Below are positions 23,982 through 60,979 of a stretch of 64,000 nucleotides of DNA, one piece after another. The stretch spans positions 3,038,001-3,102,000 of the forward strand of contig CP144172.1 in NCBI GenBank assembly GCA_039636865.1. Direction: 5' to 3'. The notes under the pieces are model-generated. The model saw only the letters and a program-made list of their open reading frames with translations, made no database searches and was not told where the DNA came from. Position 1 is the first letter of the stretch. Every line of letters starts with the position of its first letter. This DNA comes from Dermatophilaceae bacterium Sec6.4 (GTDB lineage: Bacteria; Actinomycetota; Actinomycetes; Actinomycetales; Dermatophilaceae). The position numbers were made by a program, and so were the translations under genes.

Positions 23982-24877
23982 GGTCCTAATCTACCGACGC
24001 GGTACCGCGGTCGGGGTTGGCACTGTGGGCAGCTGAACGACGACCTGTTCATGAACGACTCGCGGACCATCGTGGCCCCGCATCGCCGGCACGGCCGACC
24101 GACCCGCCCGTAGGCCTGCAGGGACCGCTCGAAATAGCCGCTGGCGCCATTGACGTTGACGTACAACGCATCGAAGCTCGTACCGCCCTGCGCCAGCGCA
24201 TTCGTCATGACCTGCGCAGCCTCATCGAGCACGAGACGCAAGGTTGCCAGCGGCAACCGGTCGGGCGCCCGCTCCCCGTGCAGCTGGGCACGCCACAAGG
24301 CTTCGTCGGCATAGATGTTGCCGATGCCCGAGACCAGCGACTGGTCCAGCAGTGCCCTCTTGAGCTGGGTACGCCGCCGCCGGATGGCCCGTGTGACGGC
24401 GCCGGCGTCGAACGAAGTTTCCAGCGGGTCGGGGGCAATGTGCGTGATCACGGACGGAACCAGCCTGACCTCACCGGATACGGCGCCCCCCATCTCATCG
24501 GGCACCAGGTCCACCAGCTGCAATCCGCCGAACGTGCGTTGATCGATGAAGCGGAGTTGCCGACCATCGTCCAGGTCGAAGATGGCGTGCGCGTGTTTCT
24601 CCCGCGGAGCATCCGCGGCTTCGACGAGCATCTGACCACTCATCCCGAGGTGGACGACCAGCGCCTGATCCTCGTGGGATCTCAGCCAGAGGTACTTTCC
24701 GCGGCGCGCTGCGTCGCGCACCTGAAAACCGGTCAACCGGGCAGCAAGATCCGCTGGCCCCGGGACGTGACGGCGGGCCACCCGCGCACCGAGTACCTGC
24801 ACCGCATCGAATCTGCGTCCGACGACATGTTCGGCCAGCCCGCGTCGGACGACCTCGACCTCGGGTAGCTCAGGCAC
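23978..24877 (-). CDS. mutM: Formamidopyrimidine-DNA glycosylase
   Basis: Base-excision repair glycosylase that removes 8-oxoguanine and formamidopyrimidines. The mature N-terminus [13 protein letters not shown] holds the catalytic Pro2 and Glu3. A C-terminal zinc finger (CRRCG...FSCPQCQ) is complete. 299 residues, normal. It follows rnc, overlapping its end by eight bases, as is usual in actinobacteria (rnc-mutM-smc region), and overlaps the peptidase gene downstream by four. Confidence 0.97.
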
Positions 24878-25619
24878 TGCTGGTGGCGCGATCCTTCAGC
24901 CGGCCCCAGGCTTCTTCCGCGGCCAGTTGCTCGGCGGACTTCTTGTTGCGCCCCACACCGGTCCCGACCGACTCATCGCCCACAACCACCGTCGCAGTGA
25001 AAACCTTGTCGTGATCGGGCCCGTCCTCCTGGACGACGTAACGCGGCGAGGCCAACCCCGCAGCCGCGCAGATCTCCTGTAGTGAGGTCTTCCAGTCAAG
25101 CCCGGCGCCGAGCTGCGCACTCTGCTCGATTCGCGCATCCATCAGAGCGTGTATCAGCCGACCGGCAGCCTCGACCCCGCCGCACAGGTAGACAGTTCCG
25201 AATACCGACTCCATCGTGTCGGCCAGGATCGATTCCTTGTCGCGTCCGCCGCTGCTGAGCTCCCCTTTGCCCAACCACACGAACGACCCGAGATCCAACT
25301 CCCGGGCAACCGCTGCAAGCGCACGTGAATTGACCACCGCCGCACGGAACTTCGCCAGCTGACCCTCCGGCAGGTCAGGGTGCGCCCGGTAGAGGTGGTC
25401 GGTTACCACCAAGCCCAAGATGGCATCGCCAAGGAACTCTTGACGCTCGTTATGGGGTATGCCGCCGTTCTCGTACGAGTACGAGCGGTGCACAAGCCCA
25501 CGTTCCAGAAGCGTCTCGTCGACCTGGATTCCGCTGGCCTGATCGAGAATTGCAGCGAGCTCCGCGACGGGCCGGCGCGCAGCGTCGTAACTACGCGCGG
25601 ACCGTCGGGAGTTGCTCAT
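24870..25619 (-). CDS. rnc: Ribonuclease III
   Basis: Double-strand-specific RNase that processes rRNA precursors and other structured RNAs. The signature [13 protein letters not shown] holds the catalytic acidic residues, with DTMESVFG as the second set, and a double-stranded RNA-binding domain fills the last 75 residues ([14 protein letters not shown] to the end). I place the start at ATG 25619 ([12 protein letters not shown]), 249 residues. The frame stays open further upstream through rpmF, but that part has no family similarity. A possible substrate, the tmRNA precursor with its 20-bp flanking stem, is elsewhere in this window. Confidence 0.96.
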
Positions 25620-25635
25620 CGAGGCGTTGTGGTGC

Positions 25636-25830
25636 TCAGACCTGGTGCTCGGCGCGCATTGCGTCGGGGTACTGGCGACCGTTGTAGCTGCCGCAGGCCG
25701 GGCAGGCCATGTGCGACTGCTTCGGCTCACTGCACACGGGGCAGCTGGAGACCGGCACGGGCGTGGCCTTCCAGTTTGCGCGTCGGGAGCGGGTGTTGGA
25801 GCGGGACATCTTCCGCTTCGGGACAGCCAC
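25636..25830 (-). CDS. rpmF: Ribosomal protein bL32
   Basis: 64-residue basic protein of the large subunit. [21 protein letters not shown] is the standard start, and two CxxC pairs (CPVC and CPAC) form the zinc ribbon. It lies two bases after the DUF177 gene and sixteen before rnc, the classic YceD-rpmF order. Confidence 0.98.
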
Positions 25831-25831
25831 G

Positions 25832-26404
25832 TCAGTTCCTCTTCTCGTCGGTGTCGGCAGGCGCCCCGGTCAGATCGACCAGTGCTGCCCACCGTGGGTC
25901 AAGCATTTCGTGATGGTGGTTCGGGTCGTCGCGCAGGTGAGCACCGCATTCGGAGCACAATCCCGGGCAGTCTTCCTGACACACCGGTTGGAACGGCAGT
26001 GAGGGCACCACTGCATCACGCAATACGGGCTCTAGGTCGGCAAAGTCGCCGTCCAGCTCGTACTGGTCTTCCTCGTCGTCGCCCAGCTCTTCGGCGTGCG
26101 CCTCGCGGTCGGTGTGTACGAACAGCTCCTGGAAATCCACGTCCACAGGGACGTGCACCTCATCCAGGCACCGCACGCACGCACCGATCGCCGTCGCCGT
26201 GACCGATCCGGACACCAGCACGCCCTCCATCACCGAATCCAGGCGCAGATCCAGGTGGATCGGCGCCGCGGTGGGAACGCTGACGACCTCGGTACCGAAG
26301 TCTTCCGGTGCTTCGATCCTGCGTTGGAGCGACATCGTTGAGCCGGGTCGCCGACTGAGTTCCCGGGTATCCAGGATCATCGGCGAACGGGGGTCAGGAT
26401 GCAT
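25832..26404 (-). CDS. DUF177 (YceD-like) protein
   Basis: 190-residue acidic protein of the YceD/DUF177 family, linked in many bacteria to rpmF and 23S rRNA accumulation. Features are [13 protein letters not shown] near the start, the CxxC-like ACVRCLDEV, a very acidic stretch ([21 protein letters not shown]), and the C-terminal metal-type cluster [13 protein letters not shown]. It starts at ATG 26404 and is co-transcribed with rpmF and rnc. Upstream, TTGGGC and TATCGT at 18-base spacing on the minus strand (within 26405-26505) could be its promoter. Confidence 0.9.
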
Positions 26405-54125: not shown

Positions 54126-56600
54126 TCAATCGCGCGGGCGGCCACGGTTTGCTCCATCGAATCGGCGGGCCGATCCGGACGGTCCGCCGCGGTAGTTACC
54201 GGGTCGGCCACCTCGACGAGCACCGCCACCGCCGCTACCACCACGGCCCTGTTCGCGCTTGGGCGTGAGGATGCGGTGCAGATCCTGGTCTGAGATCGGC
54301 CGGTCCTCGGGCGTGCGACCGCCCGCTGCACGAATGACCTCATCGCCCGGCCGGGCGCGCTGCAGGCCACCCTCGACACCGGCCTGCTCGAGCAACCGCG
54401 TCACGGCCTTGCGCTGATGCGGCAGGGCCAGGGTCACCACAGTGCCGGCCTCTCCCGCACGGGCCGTGCGACCTGCGCGGTGCAGGTAGTCCTTGTGGTC
54501 TGCGGGCGGATCGACCTGCAACACCACGCCGACATCATCGACGTGGATCCCACGTGCTGCGACGTCTGTGGCGACCAGCACGGGGATACGGCCGTCTTTG
54601 AAGGCGCTGAGCACCTTGTTGCGTTGTCCCTGGTTGAGACCACCATGCAGTGCCGCCGCCAGAACGCCCTGCTCGCGTAGTTCGCTCGCGATGCGGTCGG
54701 CTCCCAGCTTGGTCCGGGAGAAGATCACGGTGCGGCCCTCACGGTTGGCGACCTCCGCCGTGACGATCTTCTTGTCGCGCGGCTCGATCAGCAGCGCGTG
54801 GTGCGCCATCGTCGAAATGCTGACAGTGCCGTCGTCGGTGGAGTGGGTGACGGGATCGATGAGGTAGCGCTTCACCACTGTGTCGATACCGCGGTCCAGC
54901 GTCGCGGAGAAGAGCAGTCGTTGTCCGCCGGCGGGCACCGTGTCCAGAATGGTGGTGATGTCCTCCAGGAAGCCCATCTCCGCCATGTGATCGGCCTCGT
55001 CCAGGATCGCGATCTCCACGCGGGACAGATCAGCAGCGCCACGGTTGATCAGGTCCATCAACCGGCCGGGGGTCGCGATCAGCAGGTCGACACCGCGGGC
55101 CAGGGCCTGCAGCTGGGGCTCGTACGGCATACCGCCGGCCACCAACTTGTGGTGCAGGCCGATGGCGTGCACCAACGGCTGCAAGGCATCGCTGACCTGC
55201 ATCGCAAGCTCGCGGGTCGGCACCAGCACCACTGCACGCGGACACTGCGGGCGGGCCTTACCGCCCTGGGCCAGCCGGGTCAACGTGGGCAGCCCGAAGG
55301 CAAGCGTCTTACCCGAGCCGGTGCGACCGCGGCCGAGCACATCCCGACCGGCGAGAGCGTCGGGAATCGTGGCGGCCTGAATCGGGAACGGCGAGGTGAT
55401 GCCGTCGCGGGCCAGTCGCCGCACCAGGACATCCGGCAGCAGCAGATCGGCGAAACCGTTGCTGTCATCGGTGGTCTCGCTGCTGGCACTGTCGTCAGAC
55501 ATAGGAGTCCCTATCGCGGCAACACCCTGATCGACGCGTGCGTTGTCAGCACCGTCCTGATCTGCCACGGCATCGACCACAGGCTGCTCAACCTGCGTCT
55601 CGTCCCGCGGTGTCTCCACTCGCGATCCCCGGTCGGAATCACGGGACGTGTCCTGGCGCGGGTAGGTGCGGTCGGTGTTACTGCTGTTGTTGTAAACGGG
55701 GCGGTCCTCACGGTTGTTGTAGGAGCGACGCTCGCCACCGCGGTCATCGCGGGCCGGACGGTCGTCACGGTTGTAGGACGGGCGCGAATCGCGGTTGTCC
55801 TTGTTGTAGGACGGGCGACTGTCGCGGTTGTCCTTGTTGTAGGACGGGCGACTGTCGCGGTTGTCCCGGTTGTAGGACGGGCGACTGTCGCGGTTGTCCT
55901 TGTTGTAGGACGGGCGACTGTCGCGGTTGTCCCGGTTGTAGGCAGGACGGTCATCACGGTTGTAGGACGGGCGACTGTCGCGGTTGTCCCGGTTGTAGGA
56001 CGGGCGACTGTCGCGGTTGTCCCGGTTGTAGGACGGACGGTCGTCACGGTTGTACGACGGGCGCGAATCGCGGTTGTCCTTGTTGTAGGACGGGCGACTG
56101 TCGCGGTTGTCCCGGTTGTAGGACGGGCGACTGTCGCGGTTGTCCCGGTTGTAGGACGGACGGTCGTCACGGTTGTACGACGGGCGCGAATCGCGGTTGT
56201 CCTTGCTGTAGGACGGGCGACTGTCGCGGTTGTCCCTGTTGTAGGCGGGGCGGTCCTCACGGTTGAACGACGGGCGGCTGTCGCGGTTGTCCCTGTTGTA
56301 GGCGGGGCGGTCCTCACGGTTACCGGAGGAACGACGCTCCCCACCGCGATCATCACGGGAGTCCCGGCTGAACGACGGGCGGCTGTCCCGGTTGTACGAA
56401 GGGCGGGAATCGCGGTTGTTGTAGCTGCGAACGCCGCCTGGTCCGCCCTGGCCGCCTTGCCGACGATCAGACGTGCGGGGCGCATCGGAGCCGCGGCTGC
56501 TCGGACCGTCGGAGCGGCGAGCAGGAGCGCGCTGCGCTTCCTGCTTCTGGGCCCTGCTCCAGCGCGGCTTCTTGTCGTCAGGCTTCTTGGGTGGGGTCAT
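54126..56600 (-). CDS. DEAD-box RNA helicase with long RGD/Tyr repeat domain
   Basis: 824 residues from ATG 56600 with GAGAGG upstream. Residues 1-60 are basic and polar. Residues about 62-303 are a tandem repeat domain built on the 11-mer DNRDSRPSYNR and an 8-mer DDRPSYNR. The helicase core starts near 385: Q motif with SPFPIQAATIPDAL, GRGRTGSGKT (motif I), ILDEADHMAEMGF (DEAD), FSATLD, and HRAGRTARAGEAG (motif VI). A second Arg/Gly-rich tail (GRGGSGGGGARRGGRPGNYRGG) ends the protein. Such helicases unwind RNA in ribosome assembly and mRNA turnover. Both low-complexity ends suggest RNA binding or phase separation. Alternative upstream extension to 56852 is not supported. Confidence 0.93.
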   Translation of the reverse strand: MTPPKKPDDKKPRWSRAQKQEAQRAPARRSDGPSSRGSDAPRTSDRRQGGQGGPGGVRSYNNRDSRPSYNRDSRPSFSRDSRDDRGGERRSSGNREDRPAYNRDNRDSRPSFNREDRPAYNRDNRDSRPSYSKDNRDSRPSYNRDDRPSYNRDNRDSRPSYNRDNRDSRPSYNKDNRDSRPSYNRDDRPSYNRDNRDSRPSYNRDNRDSRPSYNRDDRPAYNRDNRDSRPSYNKDNRDSRPSYNRDNRDSRPSYNKDNRDSRPSYNKDNRDSRPSYNRDDRPARDDRGGERRSYNNREDRPVYNNSSNTDRTYPRQDTSRDSDRGSRVETPRDETQVEQPVVDAVADQDGADNARVDQGVAAIGTPMSDDSASSETTDDSNGFADLLLPDVLVRRLARDGITSPFPIQAATIPDALAGRDVLGRGRTGSGKTLAFGLPTLTRLAQGGKARPQCPRAVVLVPTRELAMQVSDALQPLVHAIGLHHKLVAGGMPYEPQLQALARGVDLLIATPGRLMDLINRGAADLSRVEIAILDEADHMAEMGFLEDITTILDTVPAGGQRLLFSATLDRGIDTVVKRYLIDPVTHSTDDGTVSISTMAHHALLIEPRDKKIVTAEVANREGRTVIFSRTKLGADRIASELREQGVLAAALHGGLNQGQRNKVLSAFKDGRIPVLVATDVAARGIHVDDVGVVLQVDPPADHKDYLHRAGRTARAGEAGTVVTLALPHQRKAVTRLLEQAGVEGGLQRARPGDEVIRAAGGRTPEDRPISDQDLHRILTPKREQGRGGSGGGGARRGGRPGNYRGGPSGSARRFDGANRGRPRD
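55692..56417 (-). repeat. Coding tandem repeat array in the RNA helicase
   Basis: About 726 bases encoding helicase residues 62-303. The 33-base unit for DNRDSRPSYNR occurs 13 times (some with K for R, or F for Y), interrupted by about six 24-base units for D/EDRPxYNR. Adjacent copies are nearly identical at the DNA level, so copy number probably varies between strains. Confidence 0.95.
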
Positions 56601-57007
56601 GGTGTTGCCTCTCAGATATGGGCGCGCACAAAACCCCAAAGGGAAACGACAGCGACAGGTCTCGATGGACCCGTGCTGACGAAAACGAGGTACGCATAGC
56701 GCCGTCGAAGATCTCGGCGCCCATACATGAGGAGCCGGTCCGCTGCTGATTGCAGGAGTAGGTGGACCGGTCAAAGAAGAGAACGCAAGATCGCGTGAAT
56801 ACAACTTGAGAGTAGCGGCAGTCAGGCCTACCCACGAATCACACCGGCGCAATCACGTCCCAAACGGCCCCGAAGTGACTGATCTCACCGATGCAGGTCC
56901 TCTCCCACTCCTATGGGGGCCCTTCACCCCTCGGACCCGGCATCGGCCGGCTGGGTTCACGCAGCACCTGCTCCCGACGGAGCGTTGTGCCATAGCGTTG
57001 TGCAGCG
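56601..57007. other. Gene-free stretch: helicase leader and TetR promoter
   Basis: 407 bases without a supported gene. On the minus strand it would be the leader of the RNA helicase, with two hairpins: GCGCCG/CGGCGC (56699-56704 with 56715-56720) and CCGGTCC/GGACCGG (56735-56741 with 56764-56770). On the plus strand, just before the TetR gene, AGCGTTGTGC is repeated directly at 56981-56990 and 56994-57003; TAGCGT (56993-56998) may be the -10 element of a leaderless mRNA. Confidence 0.6.
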
Positions 57008-57664: not shown

Positions 57665-59088
57665 CCCCGCGCTGCCGCCTCGTCCGCGCCCTTACCCCCC
57701 GCTGCATCCACCACGGCCTTGGCTACGACTGATGCGATTCCGGGGTGGAAGACGCTTGGGATGATGTAGGCAGCGTTCAGCTCTTCTGGTTTGACCACGT
57801 CGGCAAGTGCCATGGCTGCCGCAAGCATGATGTCGAGCGTGATGTCGGTTGCCTGCGCATCCAACAGACCACGGAACACGCCCGGGAAGACGAGCACGTT
57901 GTTGATCTGGTTGGCGAAGTCGCTACGGCCCGTGGCGACCACCGTTGCGTGCTCTGCTGCATCGCCCGGATCGACCTCTGGCTTGGGGTTTGCGAGCGCG
58001 AAGACCACGGCGCCGTCGGCCATCGTGGCGATATCGTCGCCCGTCAGCAGATCCGGAGCGGAGACGCCGATGAAAACATCGGCGCCGCGCACCGCGTCCT
58101 TCAATGTGCCGGTGACGCCTCGTGGGTTGGTGTGCTGTGCCACCCAAGCGAGCGTCGAGGAGCTGTCGCCGACGATGTCGGCCCGGTCACAGTGGACGAT
58201 TCCGTCGATATCGGCGAGCACCAGGTCGCGCGCACCGGCGTGCAGCATCAACTTGGTGATCGCGGTGCCGGCGGCTCCGGCACCACTCTGCACGATGCGC
58301 ACATCAGCAAGGTTTTTGCCCACGACCCGCAAGGCGTTTCGTAGGGCCGCGAGTACGACGATCGCCGTACCGTGCTGATCGTCGTGGAAGACCGGGATGT
58401 CCAGTTCTTCGCGCAACCTCGCCTCGATGCTGAAACAACGCGGAGCCGAGATGTCCTCGAGGTTGATACCGGCGAACACTGGAGCAATCGCCTTGACGGT
58501 ACGGACGATCTCGTCCTCATCGGTGGTGTCCAGGCAGATCGGGAAGGCGTCGATGTCGGCGAATCGCTTGAACAGGGCAGCCTTGCCCTCCATGACCGGC
58601 ATGGCGGCGAGGGGGCCGATATTGCCCAGACCGAGAACCGCCGTACCGTCGGTAACGACCGCCACCGTGTTTCGTTTGATTGTCAGCCGCCGAGCGTCTT
58701 CGGGATTCTCCGCGATGGCCATGCAGACCCGAGCCACACCCGGGGTGTATACCATCGACAAGTCGTCACGGTTGCGAATCGGCACCTTGGACTCGATCTT
58801 CAATTTGCCACCCAGGTGGGCAAGGAAGACCCGGTCGCTGACCTTGCGGACCTCAACCCCTTCCACCGCGCGCATGGCGTCGACCAGCTCACCGGCATGG
58901 TCGGCGTCACGAGCCGCTGCGGTGACGTCCACCTGCATGCGGGCGGTGTCCGAAGAACTGATGTCGAAGGCGGTGACCAGTCCGCCCGCACGCTCGACGG
59001 CGCCGGTCAGCTCGCTGACCGCAGTGGGGCGGCCCGGAAGTTCCAGGCGCACGATGATGGAGTTCGAAACCGAAGGCATGAGGGGCAT
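57652..59088 (-). CDS. Malic enzyme with N-terminal ACT domain
   Basis: Oxidative decarboxylation of malate to pyruvate. 478 residues from ATG 59088 (59079 also possible), AGG five bases upstream. The first 85 residues form an ACT domain (SIIVRLELPGRPTAVSELTGAVERAGG), which in this type probably binds a regulatory ligand. The core has MVYTPGVARVCMAIAENP, KRNTVAVVTDGTAVLGLGNIGP, the metal/catalytic region VFHDDQHGTAIVVLAAL and the cofactor site SGAGAAGTAITKL. The frame extends through the tmRNA gene to 59430, which is not real coding. Confidence 0.94.
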   Translation of the reverse strand: MPLMPSVSNSIIVRLELPGRPTAVSELTGAVERAGGLVTAFDISSSDTARMQVDVTAAARDADHAGELVDAMRAVEGVEVRKVSDRVFLAHLGGKLKIESKVPIRNRDDLSMVYTPGVARVCMAIAENPEDARRLTIKRNTVAVVTDGTAVLGLGNIGPLAAMPVMEGKAALFKRFADIDAFPICLDTTDEDEIVRTVKAIAPVFAGINLEDISAPRCFSIEARLREELDIPVFHDDQHGTAIVVLAALRNALRVVGKNLADVRIVQSGAGAAGTAITKLMLHAGARDLVLADIDGIVHCDRADIVGDSSSTLAWVAQHTNPRGVTGTLKDAVRGADVFIGVSAPDLLTGDDIATMADGAVVFALANPKPEVDPGDAAEHATVVATGRSDFANQINNVLVFPGVFRGLLDAQATDITLDIMLAAAMALADVVKPEELNAAYIIPSVFHPGIASVVAKAVVDAAGGKGADEAAARGQVV

Positions 59089-59202
59089 GGGACCTATTGT
59101 GCTGCCCGACACGAGGTGCCGCAGGCAACATTTGGAGGTTCGCCGGTAACTGCGGGGCGGATATATCTTTCCGCGTGGAAAATGCGGCCGCCGAAGGGTG
59201 TT

Positions 59203-59222
59203 ACTCAACAGTGTGACGTGCC
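59203..59222. repeat. Inverted repeat flanking ssrA, 3'-side arm
   Basis: 20 bases, exact inverse of 59601-59620. It starts five bases beyond the 3' end of the mature tmRNA. Confidence 0.95.
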
Positions 59223-59227
59223 GGGAG

Positions 59228-59592
59228 TGGAGGTGGCGGGAATCGAACCCGCGTCCGCTAAACGCGCTCCAGGGCTTCTCCGGGTGCAGTGCGCTAAGGA
59301 TTTTCTCGGCCCCAGGACTCGCACGCACGCGTTCCCTGACAGGCCCAGCCGAGTAAGAGTCCCGCGTCGCCCCTCGGCGTGACGACACAGCAAGTCCTCT
59401 AGCTGACGCCAGACACTGAGTCGAGAACAAGCTCAGGCTGACGGACTTCTACGCTCGCTTAGGCAGCGAGGGCGAAGTCGGTGCGCTTGGAATCGGCACC
59501 TATTGGTTTTGCACAGATCGTTAACGAGATAACTGTGCATCCTCGACCCGCTTCCCCTGAAATGTCGGTCAACGTCGAAACCGATCACCCCC
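59228..59592 (-). ncRNA. ssrA: Transfer-messenger RNA (tmRNA)
   Basis: 365 bases. The tRNA-like ends pair GGGGGTG (59586-59592) with CACCTCC next to the 3' end, and the T-arm has GGGTTCGATTCCC. GGTTTCGACGTTGACCG follows the 5' end, as in other actinobacterial tmRNAs. The tag frame at 59459-59497, read leftward, encodes ADSKRTDFALAA and a TAA stop, with TAGGT right before the resume GCC codon as in other tmRNAs. It rescues stalled ribosomes with SmpB (not in the window). The final CCA is not encoded. A 20-bp inverted repeat flanks the gene. Confidence 0.96.
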
Positions 59593-59600
59593 AGGTTGCG

Positions 59601-59620
59601 GGCACGTCACACTGTTGAGT
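59601..59620. repeat. Inverted repeat flanking ssrA, 5'-side arm
   Basis: 20 bases, exact inverse of 59203-59222, ending eight bases before the mature 5' end of tmRNA. Confidence 0.95.
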
Positions 59621-59704
59621 TGTCGCCGACCCGTGGGCCGACGTGTTCATCGTAATCGTCAACGGCGACACGAGCCACCGCATTCCGCCTCAGCTGGACA
59701 GTCC

Positions 59705-60979
59705 CTACCCGTACAACGGGCGAAGCGGGTACTCCGCGGTGCCGTCGCGGCCGACTTTCTGGCCGAGCACCTGGTGCAATTGGATGTTGTTGCGGGTGAA
59801 TCCCAACGCGGAACCCGCCAGGTACAACCCCCAGATCTTGGCGATGGGTAGGCCGGCATCAGCAACGCACTCGTCCCAGTTGTCCTCCAGGTTCTGGGCC
59901 CACTGCGTACAGGTACGCGCGTAATGCTCGCGTAGATCCTCCACATGCCGAACCTCGAACCCCTGCGCCTGCATCGCTGACGCGATCGTGCCGACCGGTA
60001 CGAGTTCGCCGTCCGGAAAGACATACCGGTTGATGAAACCGCCCTTGGTCAGCGAGGGCTTCTTCGTGTCCGTGCGGGTGATGCAGTGGTTCAGCAACCG
60101 GCCGCCAGGGCGCAGCTTGGAGTGCAGGAACTGGAAATACGCGGGGTAGTTCTTCGCACCGATGTGTTCGGTGAGGCCGATCGAGCTCACGGCGTCGAAG
60201 TCGCCCTCGGTCACGTCGCGGTAGTCGCAGAACCGCACCTCGGCGCGGTCGTCCAGGCGCATCTCCTTGATCTTCTGACCCGCCCAGCTCGCCTGGTTCT
60301 GCGACAGGGTGACACCGAGCGCGGTGACGCCGTAGTGCTCGACGGCATGTCGGACCATGCCGCCCCAACCGCACCCGACATCCAGCAGTCGTTGGCCGGG
60401 CTGCAGGTCCAGCTTGCGGCAGACCAGATCGTGCTTGTTGGCCTGCGCCTCCTCCAGGCTTGCATCTGCAGTCGGGTACGCAGCACAGGTGTAGGTCATC
60501 GACGGGCCGAGCACGAGCTCGTAGAACTCGTTACTGACGTCGTAGTGGTAGCGGATGGCGTCTGCGTCCCGCTTTCGCGAGTGCCGCAGTCCCTCCAGTC
60601 CGCGACGCCACTGCGGCGGCTGCTCCTGCTCCGGAAGGGGCGGGATCTGTAGGTTCTTGATCCCGAGACCCCGGGCGATACGCGCCACCTTGGCGAACTG
60701 CGGACGCTTGATCTCGAAGTCGGTCATGAACAGGTTCAGGAACTCGTAGGGGTTACCCGGCGGAATGCCATCGAATTCCAGGTCACCGGACAGATAGGCC
60801 CGAACCAACCCCAACTCCCCTGGAGAGGTGACCATGTACCGAAGGGCCCGCTCGTTGAGTAGCTCCATAGCGAACGGAGCGTTCGGATTTCCGCCCGTCG
60901 AGCCGTCGTAGGCCGTAACGCGTAACGGCAGCTCAGTGCCGAACAGCTCGTCGAAAACCGCACCGATCGTCATCTTCAT
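59705..60979 (-). CDS. tmsB: SAM-dependent fatty-acyl methyltransferase (TmsB-like)
   Basis: 424-residue enzyme of the cyclopropane-fatty-acid-synthase family, acting on acyl chains of membrane lipids. RYHYDVSNEFYELVLGPSMTYTCA is the family start of the catalytic domain, LLDVGCGWGGMVRHA binds SAM, and SIGLTEHIGAKNYPAYF is the active-site region. An N-terminal domain of about 140 residues precedes it. Paired with the flavoprotein downstream in sequence (upstream in transcription), it matches the two-gene system that makes 10-methylene and then 10-methyl-branched fatty acids. The ATG overlaps the flavoprotein stop by four bases. Confidence 0.82.
   Translation of the reverse strand: MKMTIGAVFDELFGTELPLRVTAYDGSTGGNPNAPFAMELLNERALRYMVTSPGELGLVRAYLSGDLEFDGIPPGNPYEFLNLFMTDFEIKRPQFAKVARIARGLGIKNLQIPPLPEQEQPPQWRRGLEGLRHSRKRDADAIRYHYDVSNEFYELVLGPSMTYTCAAYPTADASLEEAQANKHDLVCRKLDLQPGQRLLDVGCGWGGMVRHAVEHYGVTALGVTLSQNQASWAGQKIKEMRLDDRAEVRFCDYRDVTEGDFDAVSSIGLTEHIGAKNYPAYFQFLHSKLRPGGRLLNHCITRTDTKKPSLTKGGFINRYVFPDGELVPVGTIASAMQAQGFEVRHVEDLREHYARTCTQWAQNLEDNWDECVADAGLPIAKIWGLYLAGSALGFTRNNIQLHQVLGQKVGRDGTAEYPLRPLYG

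Follow-up and report, generated by a model that had tools for sequence, protein, structure and literature searches.

The RNA that rescues stuck ribosomes, tmRNA, is encoded by ssrA, and in the stretch of DNA analysed here this gene is bracketed by two sequences that are exact inverse copies of each other. The stretch, hereafter the window, comprises 64,000 nucleotides of contig CP144172.1 from the Dermatophilaceae bacterium Sec6.4. An earlier note, made from its letters alone, had likened the repeat to the processing stalks of rRNA precursors that are cut by RNase III. This locus raises the question of whether the repeat is a conserved RNA helix and, if so, what part it might play in the maturation of the tmRNA precursor.

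The inverted repeat around ssrA

A check of the letters confirmed both the perfect 20-bp repeat and its spacing (Table 1). The arms lie 8 nt from the mature 5' end and 5 nt from the mature 3' end, the latter gap being counted from the discriminator base at 59228 (it is 2 nt from the last base of the CCA position, 59225), and the base beyond the repeat is unpaired on both sides. The mature RNA was delimited by ARAGORN (59227-59592, minus strand) and by a match to Rfam RF00023 (59225-59592, 154.5 bits), which is the sole tmRNA match above the cut-off in the 3.79-Mb genome. The 3' CCA is not encoded (ACTC at 59225-59228, minus strand) in this genome and in two congeners, while many relatives encode it.

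Table 1. Coordinates of the features discussed, with the grounds for each assignment (positions are those of the window).
Feature	Position	Strand	Basis
rnc, RNase III, candidate enzyme	24870..25892	-	PF14622, PF00636 and PF00035 above cut-offs
3' arm of the stalk (in the RNA, downstream of tmRNA); ACTCAACAGTGTGACGTGCC on the + strand	59203..59222	-	complementarity, uniqueness, covariation
3' spacer, discriminator base to stalk	59223..59227	-	sequence
ssrA, mature tmRNA, tag ADSKRTDFALAA	59225..59592	-	ARAGORN and Rfam RF00023
Unpaired 5' spacer, 8 nt, stalk to RNase P site	59593..59600	-	sequence
5' arm of the stalk (in the RNA, upstream of tmRNA)	59601..59620	-	exact complement of 59203-59222; covaries with the 3' flank in the family
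boxC-like motif GACAACTCAACAG, common to 16S rRNA leaders; its 3' part is the stalk foot	59612..59624	-	exact pattern GANAACTSNACAGNGTG
-10-like hexamer TANNNT (TACGAT), 25 nt upstream of the motif	59649..59654	-	recurrence of GTTG-N3-10-TANNNT
ECF (SigR/SigH-type) promoter-like GGAAT-N18-GTTG	59660..59686	-	class-wide recurrence

The gap-free helix score of the window is 51, against a maximum of 40 and a 99.9% point of 37.0 among 6090 shuffled flank pairs drawn from 203 genomes. The minimum-free-energy structure predicted for the 458-nt precursor has the arms paired beside the acceptor stem, from which an internal loop separates them; the predicted probability of pairing with the partner is 1.0 for 17 of the 20 arm bases and 0.94, 0.87 and 0.73 for the remaining three. 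Pairing in the precursor, as the earlier note had proposed, is borne out by this model, and the note was also right that rnc is intact in the window, its product carrying RNase III and dsRNA-binding domains.

Because ssrA is a common integration site, the arms might be taken for the ends of a mobile element or the remnant of an att site. Yet the repeat is inverted, not direct, and a genome-wide search for the arm at up to three mismatches returned two sites only, which are the two stalk arms; the copies elsewhere by which the note would have recognised a mobile repeat did not appear. A search of phage sequences yielded 27 records with short matches only, none covering 80% of the query, and the 15 matches listed all fall in the tRNA-like 3' end. 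The paired manner in which the letters of the arms vary between genomes (see below) rules this origin out, and we attach practically no weight to it.

An rRNA leader motif at the foot of the stalk

At its base, the helix contains a motif of rRNA leaders, A(N)AACTCAACAG(Y)GTG from the boxC region, and the 5' arm in the window starts within A(C)AACTCAACAG (the ACAACTCAACAG motif). The exact pattern GANAACTSNACAGNGTG occurs at three sites in the 3.79-Mb genome, namely the two 16S leaders and ssrA, and at none in the reversed control; allowing one mismatch brings in a single further site, along with one in the control. Both 16S leaders read GATAACTCAACAGCGTG about 100 nt before 16S, and many other members of the class have CTTGAGAACTCAACAG(C/T)GTG before 16S, some genomes being without a good match. 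Judging by its letters, a boxC/NusA-type sequence like that of the same genome's rRNA leaders is present at ssrA. The likeness to an rRNA stalk is backed here on grounds beyond those of the earlier note. The boxC RNA that Beuth crystallised with NusA reportedly reads GAACUCAAUAG, a string that had no match in the literature searched.

For comparison with other genomes, families were given anonymous labels (f1, f2, etc.), f1 being that of the window, Dermatophilaceae s.l. A scan for the motif together with the tmRNA start retrieved 58 records, from Knoellia, Janibacter, Ornithinimicrobium, Phycicoccus, Serinicoccus and their kin and from MAGs of Actinomycetales or Actinomycetota; the five genera named are taken here to belong to this one family. 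At the E-value set, tmRNA matches were obtained in 58/58 genomes of the relatives set (57 of the 58 matches exceeding the cut-off), 77/79 of the family set, 114/119 of the order set and 37/38 of the class set, and the ends of the tmRNA were finally parsed at 203 of 219 loci. The 16 loci dropped belong to f8 (five), f3 (three), f1 (the second copy of G067), f6 (the second copy of G128) and, with one each, f27, f28, f29, f38, f40 and f43. Matches in G086, G127, G178 and G047 (at a contig start) and six of 36 phylum-wide matches fell outside the sample, and G035 gave no full tmRNA match.

Across 60 f1 genomes, the exact pattern had 117 matches in 55 genomes and none in the reversed control. By their coordinates, 15 of these lie at ssrA; 101 read GA(G/T)AACTCAACAG(C/T)GTG, and a single match (G200:C27:54362) is a different sequence that is not at the ssrA of its genome. 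Nine of the 60 genomes were also searched for 16S, and their 20 matches comprise 14 before 16S, four before ssrA and two in G029 that could not be assigned because the contig bearing its 16S is cut upstream. The leader motif is kept in 79/81 parsed f1 genomes, and its 12-nt core (at least 10 of 12 positions) precedes ssrA in 78/81 f1 genomes and in 167/203 overall, as compared with about 4% in shuffles. Eight of the 33 stalk-less families, namely f4, f6, f7, f22, f25, f30, f32 and f34, have this motif in weak form or not at all (under half of their genomes match it at 10 or more of the 12 positions); in most stalk-less families, it adjoins the mature 5' end of the tmRNA (e.g., loci L005, L036 and L047). 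Motif and stalk are separable, given that many families possess only the former. The U-rich boxA half, which reads CTTGAGAACT in many 16S leaders and TTTTTTGATAACT in those of the window genome, is degenerate before ssrA in f1 (the two positions preceding the G have T at frequencies of 0.56 and 0.58), making binding of NusB/NusE doubtful; some stalk-less families keep the TTG of this half before ssrA.

The match to rRNA leaders might be incidental, and the motif a leader signal of another kind, such as a determinant for RNase P or part of a promoter or start site. Its position next to the mature 5' end in many stalk-less families, where RNase P reads the leader, would suit such a role, as would the short distance, about 10 nt or less, that separates its start from a -10-like hexamer in several f1 genomes. 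Nevertheless, its sequence is unchanged at distances of 15-57 nt from the mature end and of anything between 6 and 54 nt from the promoter-like element, and all matches to the 17-nt extended pattern, GTG included, that could be placed are in 16S or ssrA leaders, except for one in 60 genomes. We consider this explanation improbable.

Promoter-like elements lie further upstream, although a generic sigma-70 scan found no promoter. In Streptomyces, ssrA is under SigR control, and the GGAAT-N18-GTTG form seen in the window is presumably the consensus of SigR/SigH-type stress promoters. GGAAT-N17-19-GTTG was found in 77/203 upstream regions (0.13 expected in shuffles) and the looser GGAA-N17-21-GTT in 136/203 (5.9 expected), while GTTG-N3-10-TANNNT precedes the motif in 35/79 f1 genomes (1.2 expected) and 67/187 overall (3.3 expected). 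As these elements are upstream of the 5' arm, the arm should be part of the RNA. A transcription start inside the arm, which the earlier note had named as a possible objection, is disfavoured by the conserved GGAAT-N18-GTTG and by TACGAT, both of which lie upstream of the arm, the start site itself being a prediction.

Paired changes in related genomes

The earlier note had proposed a comparison of the ssrA flanks of related genomes, and complementarity was found to be kept there through paired changes. A plain search of 60-nt flanks exceeded the 99.9% point of the null in only 45/81 f1 and 2/7 f19 genomes, and the partner tests anchored on the motif were devised after this result had been seen. 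In these tests, the 5' arms of 79 f1 genomes had a mean score of 38.7 with their own 3' flank versus 23.2 with other f1 flanks, the own partner having a median rank fraction of 0.038; the 79 stalk-less genomes used as a control (motif less than 8 nt from the mature end) gave 16.5 with own and 16.2 with foreign flanks, and a rank of 0.526. In only 18/79 genomes does the own flank outscore every other f1 flank, because the arms have much sequence in common (CAGYGTGACGTG in many). Two further nulls were used, with the outcome for f1, f19, f5 and f12 in this order. The own 3' flank beat all of the 105 flanks from stalk-less families in 73/79, 5/7, 0/2 and 0/8 genomes, and reached p ≤ 0.01 against them in 74/79, 7/7, 2/2 and 0/8; with shuffled own flanks as the null, p ≤ 0.01 was reached in 71/79, 6/7, 2/2 and 0/8. 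In f12, p ≤ 0.05 against the stalk-less flanks was seen in just 3/8 genomes, and at most a short helix of 9-10 bp directly follows the 3' end in 4/8; the evidence for a helix in this family is only suggestive.

All four Watson-Crick pairs occur in each of eight stem columns (+1, +3 and +5 to +10, counted from the motif onwards), with 93-100% of cells paired; at column +6, for instance, CG occurs 45 times, GC 19, AT 7 and TA 6. This table is biased towards pairing because it was built from the best helix of each genome in the 45-nt 3' flank, and the partner tests are its control. The flanking repeat is a conserved RNA helix, and the pairing of the stalk is conserved by compensatory change.

The dimensions of the stalk vary within f1. 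In the 79 genomes, the gap-free helix has a median length of 17 bp (range 8-25; 20 bp in the window), the 5' spacer a median of 8 nt (4-46) and the 3' offset, searched within 45 nt, a median of 6 nt (1-28). In G012, G207 and f19, inspection by eye revealed hairpins inserted in the 5' spacer with the stem retained. In G208, two hairpins were seen by eye between the 3' end of the tmRNA and the 3' arm, which is kept about 56 nt downstream; this genome appeared stalk-less in the plain flank search and in the foreign-flank test (p 0.086), and is absent from the list of p > 0.01 when 90 nt are searched. G067 has a further ssrA copy close to the end of a contig; this copy keeps the motif and the stalk and differs in its first acceptor base. 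Both genomes sampled from one genus of f1, G029 and G218, have neither motif nor stalk, and their upstream sequence looks unrelated. The joint absence of the two elements would count in favour of a shared module.

With motifs that lack a stalk being widespread in the class, the stalk itself looks lineage-specific. Of 26 further loci from across the phylum, four are cut by contig ends and three have an Rfam match that starts inside the gene; no clear stalk was found at the others (best gap-free score 26). A 16S tree of 32 genomes, with 29 inner branches of which 13 are well supported, forces at least three changes of the stalk, and its resolution is too poor to tell a single gain followed by losses from several gains.

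A candidate rRNA-type route for pre-tmRNA

The helix, its covariation and spread through most of the f1 genomes sampled, the match to rRNA leaders and the upstream promoter-like elements together point to a precursor that probably makes use of the NusA/RNase III module of rRNA, a reading that we hold with moderate confidence. In the ssrA precursor, the paired arms would lengthen the acceptor stem beyond an internal loop of 8/5 nt, as in an rRNA-type processing stalk. NusA riding on RNA polymerase may bind the nascent A(C)AACTCAACAG leader and keep it near the RNA exit until the 3' arm emerges about 390 nt later and pairs with the 5' arm; since the motif of the window species is partly base-paired, any binding by NusA would have to precede closure of the stem. 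RNase III would next cut both strands of the helix to release a pre-tmRNA with a short leader and a short trailer, and RNase P would then form the mature 5' end, with exonucleases presumably trimming the 3' end before CCA is added. The rRNA-like design is well supported by the comparisons above, while the enzymes remain putative. The shared leader sequence suggests that tmRNA and rRNA precursors are made and trimmed by a common machinery.

We infer NusA-assisted pairing and RNase III cleavage from the layout of the ssrA leader, which is that of the Mycobacterium tuberculosis rrn operon: a boxC-type motif and a helix closed by a distant 3' arm. In that operon, boxC is described as binding NusA and as forming part of the RNase III duplex that frees pre-16S, with NusA possibly offering the upstream strand to its downstream partner (PMC6614801). 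The M. tuberculosis NusA-boxC complex (Beuth 2005, cited in PMC6614801) likewise involves a linear boxC at the foot of an RNase III duplex, whereas the ssrA motif sits in a non-ribosomal RNA and is a candidate NusA site. Like the 16S and 23S stalks of bacteria, the ssrA stalk consists of complementary flanks around a structured stable RNA, and the 16S leader of the window genome has the same motif, AACTCAACAG(C/T)GTG, its boxC region being predicted to form a duplex with the spacer that follows 16S. In contrast to the rRNA stalks, that of ssrA encloses a tmRNA of 0.37 kb whose 5' end is expected from RNase P, the U-rich boxA half is degenerate, and the RNase III cut is predicted. In another actinobacterium, Propionibacterium acnes, staggered cuts have been mapped in the 16S and 23S stalks, and the section of that paper devoted to these stalks does not mention one for tmRNA (PMC3848588).

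The stalk could also be a structural clamp that RNase III leaves uncut, joining the ends for the tRNA-like fold and blocking exonucleases, with RNase P and a single-strand endonuclease finishing the RNA. RNase III needs a helix of about two turns. Some gap-free helices measure just 8-12 bp, perhaps too little for RNase III to cut efficiently; moreover, the f1 helix ends at least 4 nt before the mature 5' end, leaving the RNase P site single-stranded, and stalk-less relatives have intact tmRNA genes. A mere clamp is less easily reconciled with the 20 perfect bp of the window and the median of 17 and maximum of 25 bp in f1, close to what RNase III would take, or with an rRNA-leader motif at the stalk foot, which points to the rRNA route. 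It is unlikely in our view, albeit the most serious competitor. With boxA and boxC being antitermination elements in rRNA, a role in transcription, as a terminator or antiterminator instead of a processing element, may come to mind as well. Against it speak the distance of about 380 nt between the arms, a scan of 59050-59800 in which no T-tract hairpin of the terminator type appeared, and the separate GC hairpin that several relatives show, by eye, after the stalk; such a device is very improbable.

The involvement of RNase III is less novel than the earlier note had assumed when it set an RNase III stalk apart from known tmRNA maturation. We know of no description of a conserved flank-to-flank stalk for p10Sa, the pre-tmRNA of Escherichia coli. 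Processing of p10Sa has been ascribed to RNase III or RNase E together with RNase P and exonucleases, RNase III being likewise a candidate endonuclease at the 3' end: one review gives 'RNase III or E' as the enzyme of the 3' cut (PMC3968760), and the title of a 1990 study, as cited in PMC3386247, refers to the action of RNase III with Mn2+ on the precursor of 10Sa RNA. In PMC3386247 itself, tmRNA of Staphylococcus aureus co-purified with RNase III, with no claim as to maturation, and RNase III is said to be involved in the maturation of Bacillus subtilis scRNA, or 4.5S RNA (PMC3386247). This scRNA is likewise a small stable RNA matured with RNase III and, unlike tmRNA, is not tRNA-like. Other RNAs outside the rRNA operons are also subject to Nus-factor signals, as with boxA-regulated suhB. 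In B. subtilis, the scRNA precursor has a flanking stem. What is new here is the boxC-type rRNA leader motif at the foot of a conserved tmRNA stalk; among the matches listed by our searches, mostly from non-subscription literature, no title or abstract opening dealt with a stalk in the tmRNA flanks or with boxC before ssrA.

A broader conjecture, which we advance tentatively and which may well fail, is that throughout the Actinomycetes ssrA is transcribed by an RNA polymerase modified in the rRNA style by NusA and boxC, the RNase III stalk having been added in the window's family and f19 (probably also in f5 and perhaps in f12), so that ribosomes and their rescue RNA would be co-produced and co-processed. 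If the rRNA route applies, tmRNA maturation in these bacteria would follow the sequence of NusA-held leader, long-range stalk and RNase III, and the supply of the ribosome-rescue RNA would be tied to rRNA synthesis. The locus would also offer a natural model of about 460 nt for the way in which the transcription machinery unites distant precursor ends, a matter hard to address on the 1.5-kb 16S precursor. In much of the class, boxC-type signals would then extend past rRNA to non-coding RNA genes, a kind of gene left out of the boxA survey of non-rRNA genes, which dealt with boxA and genes of known function (Baniulyte 2017, PMC5725501). Weighing against the rRNA route, the level of ssrA in Streptomyces venezuelae goes up on deletion of rnc, and ssrA was not identified in the RNase III induction experiments (PMC12096830).

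Apart from ssrA and rnc, the window contains an ORF for a DEAD-box helicase (54126-56852) whose N-terminal half includes a long run of near-repeated units of the RDNRDSRPSYN type, at about 55600-56400 on the minus strand.
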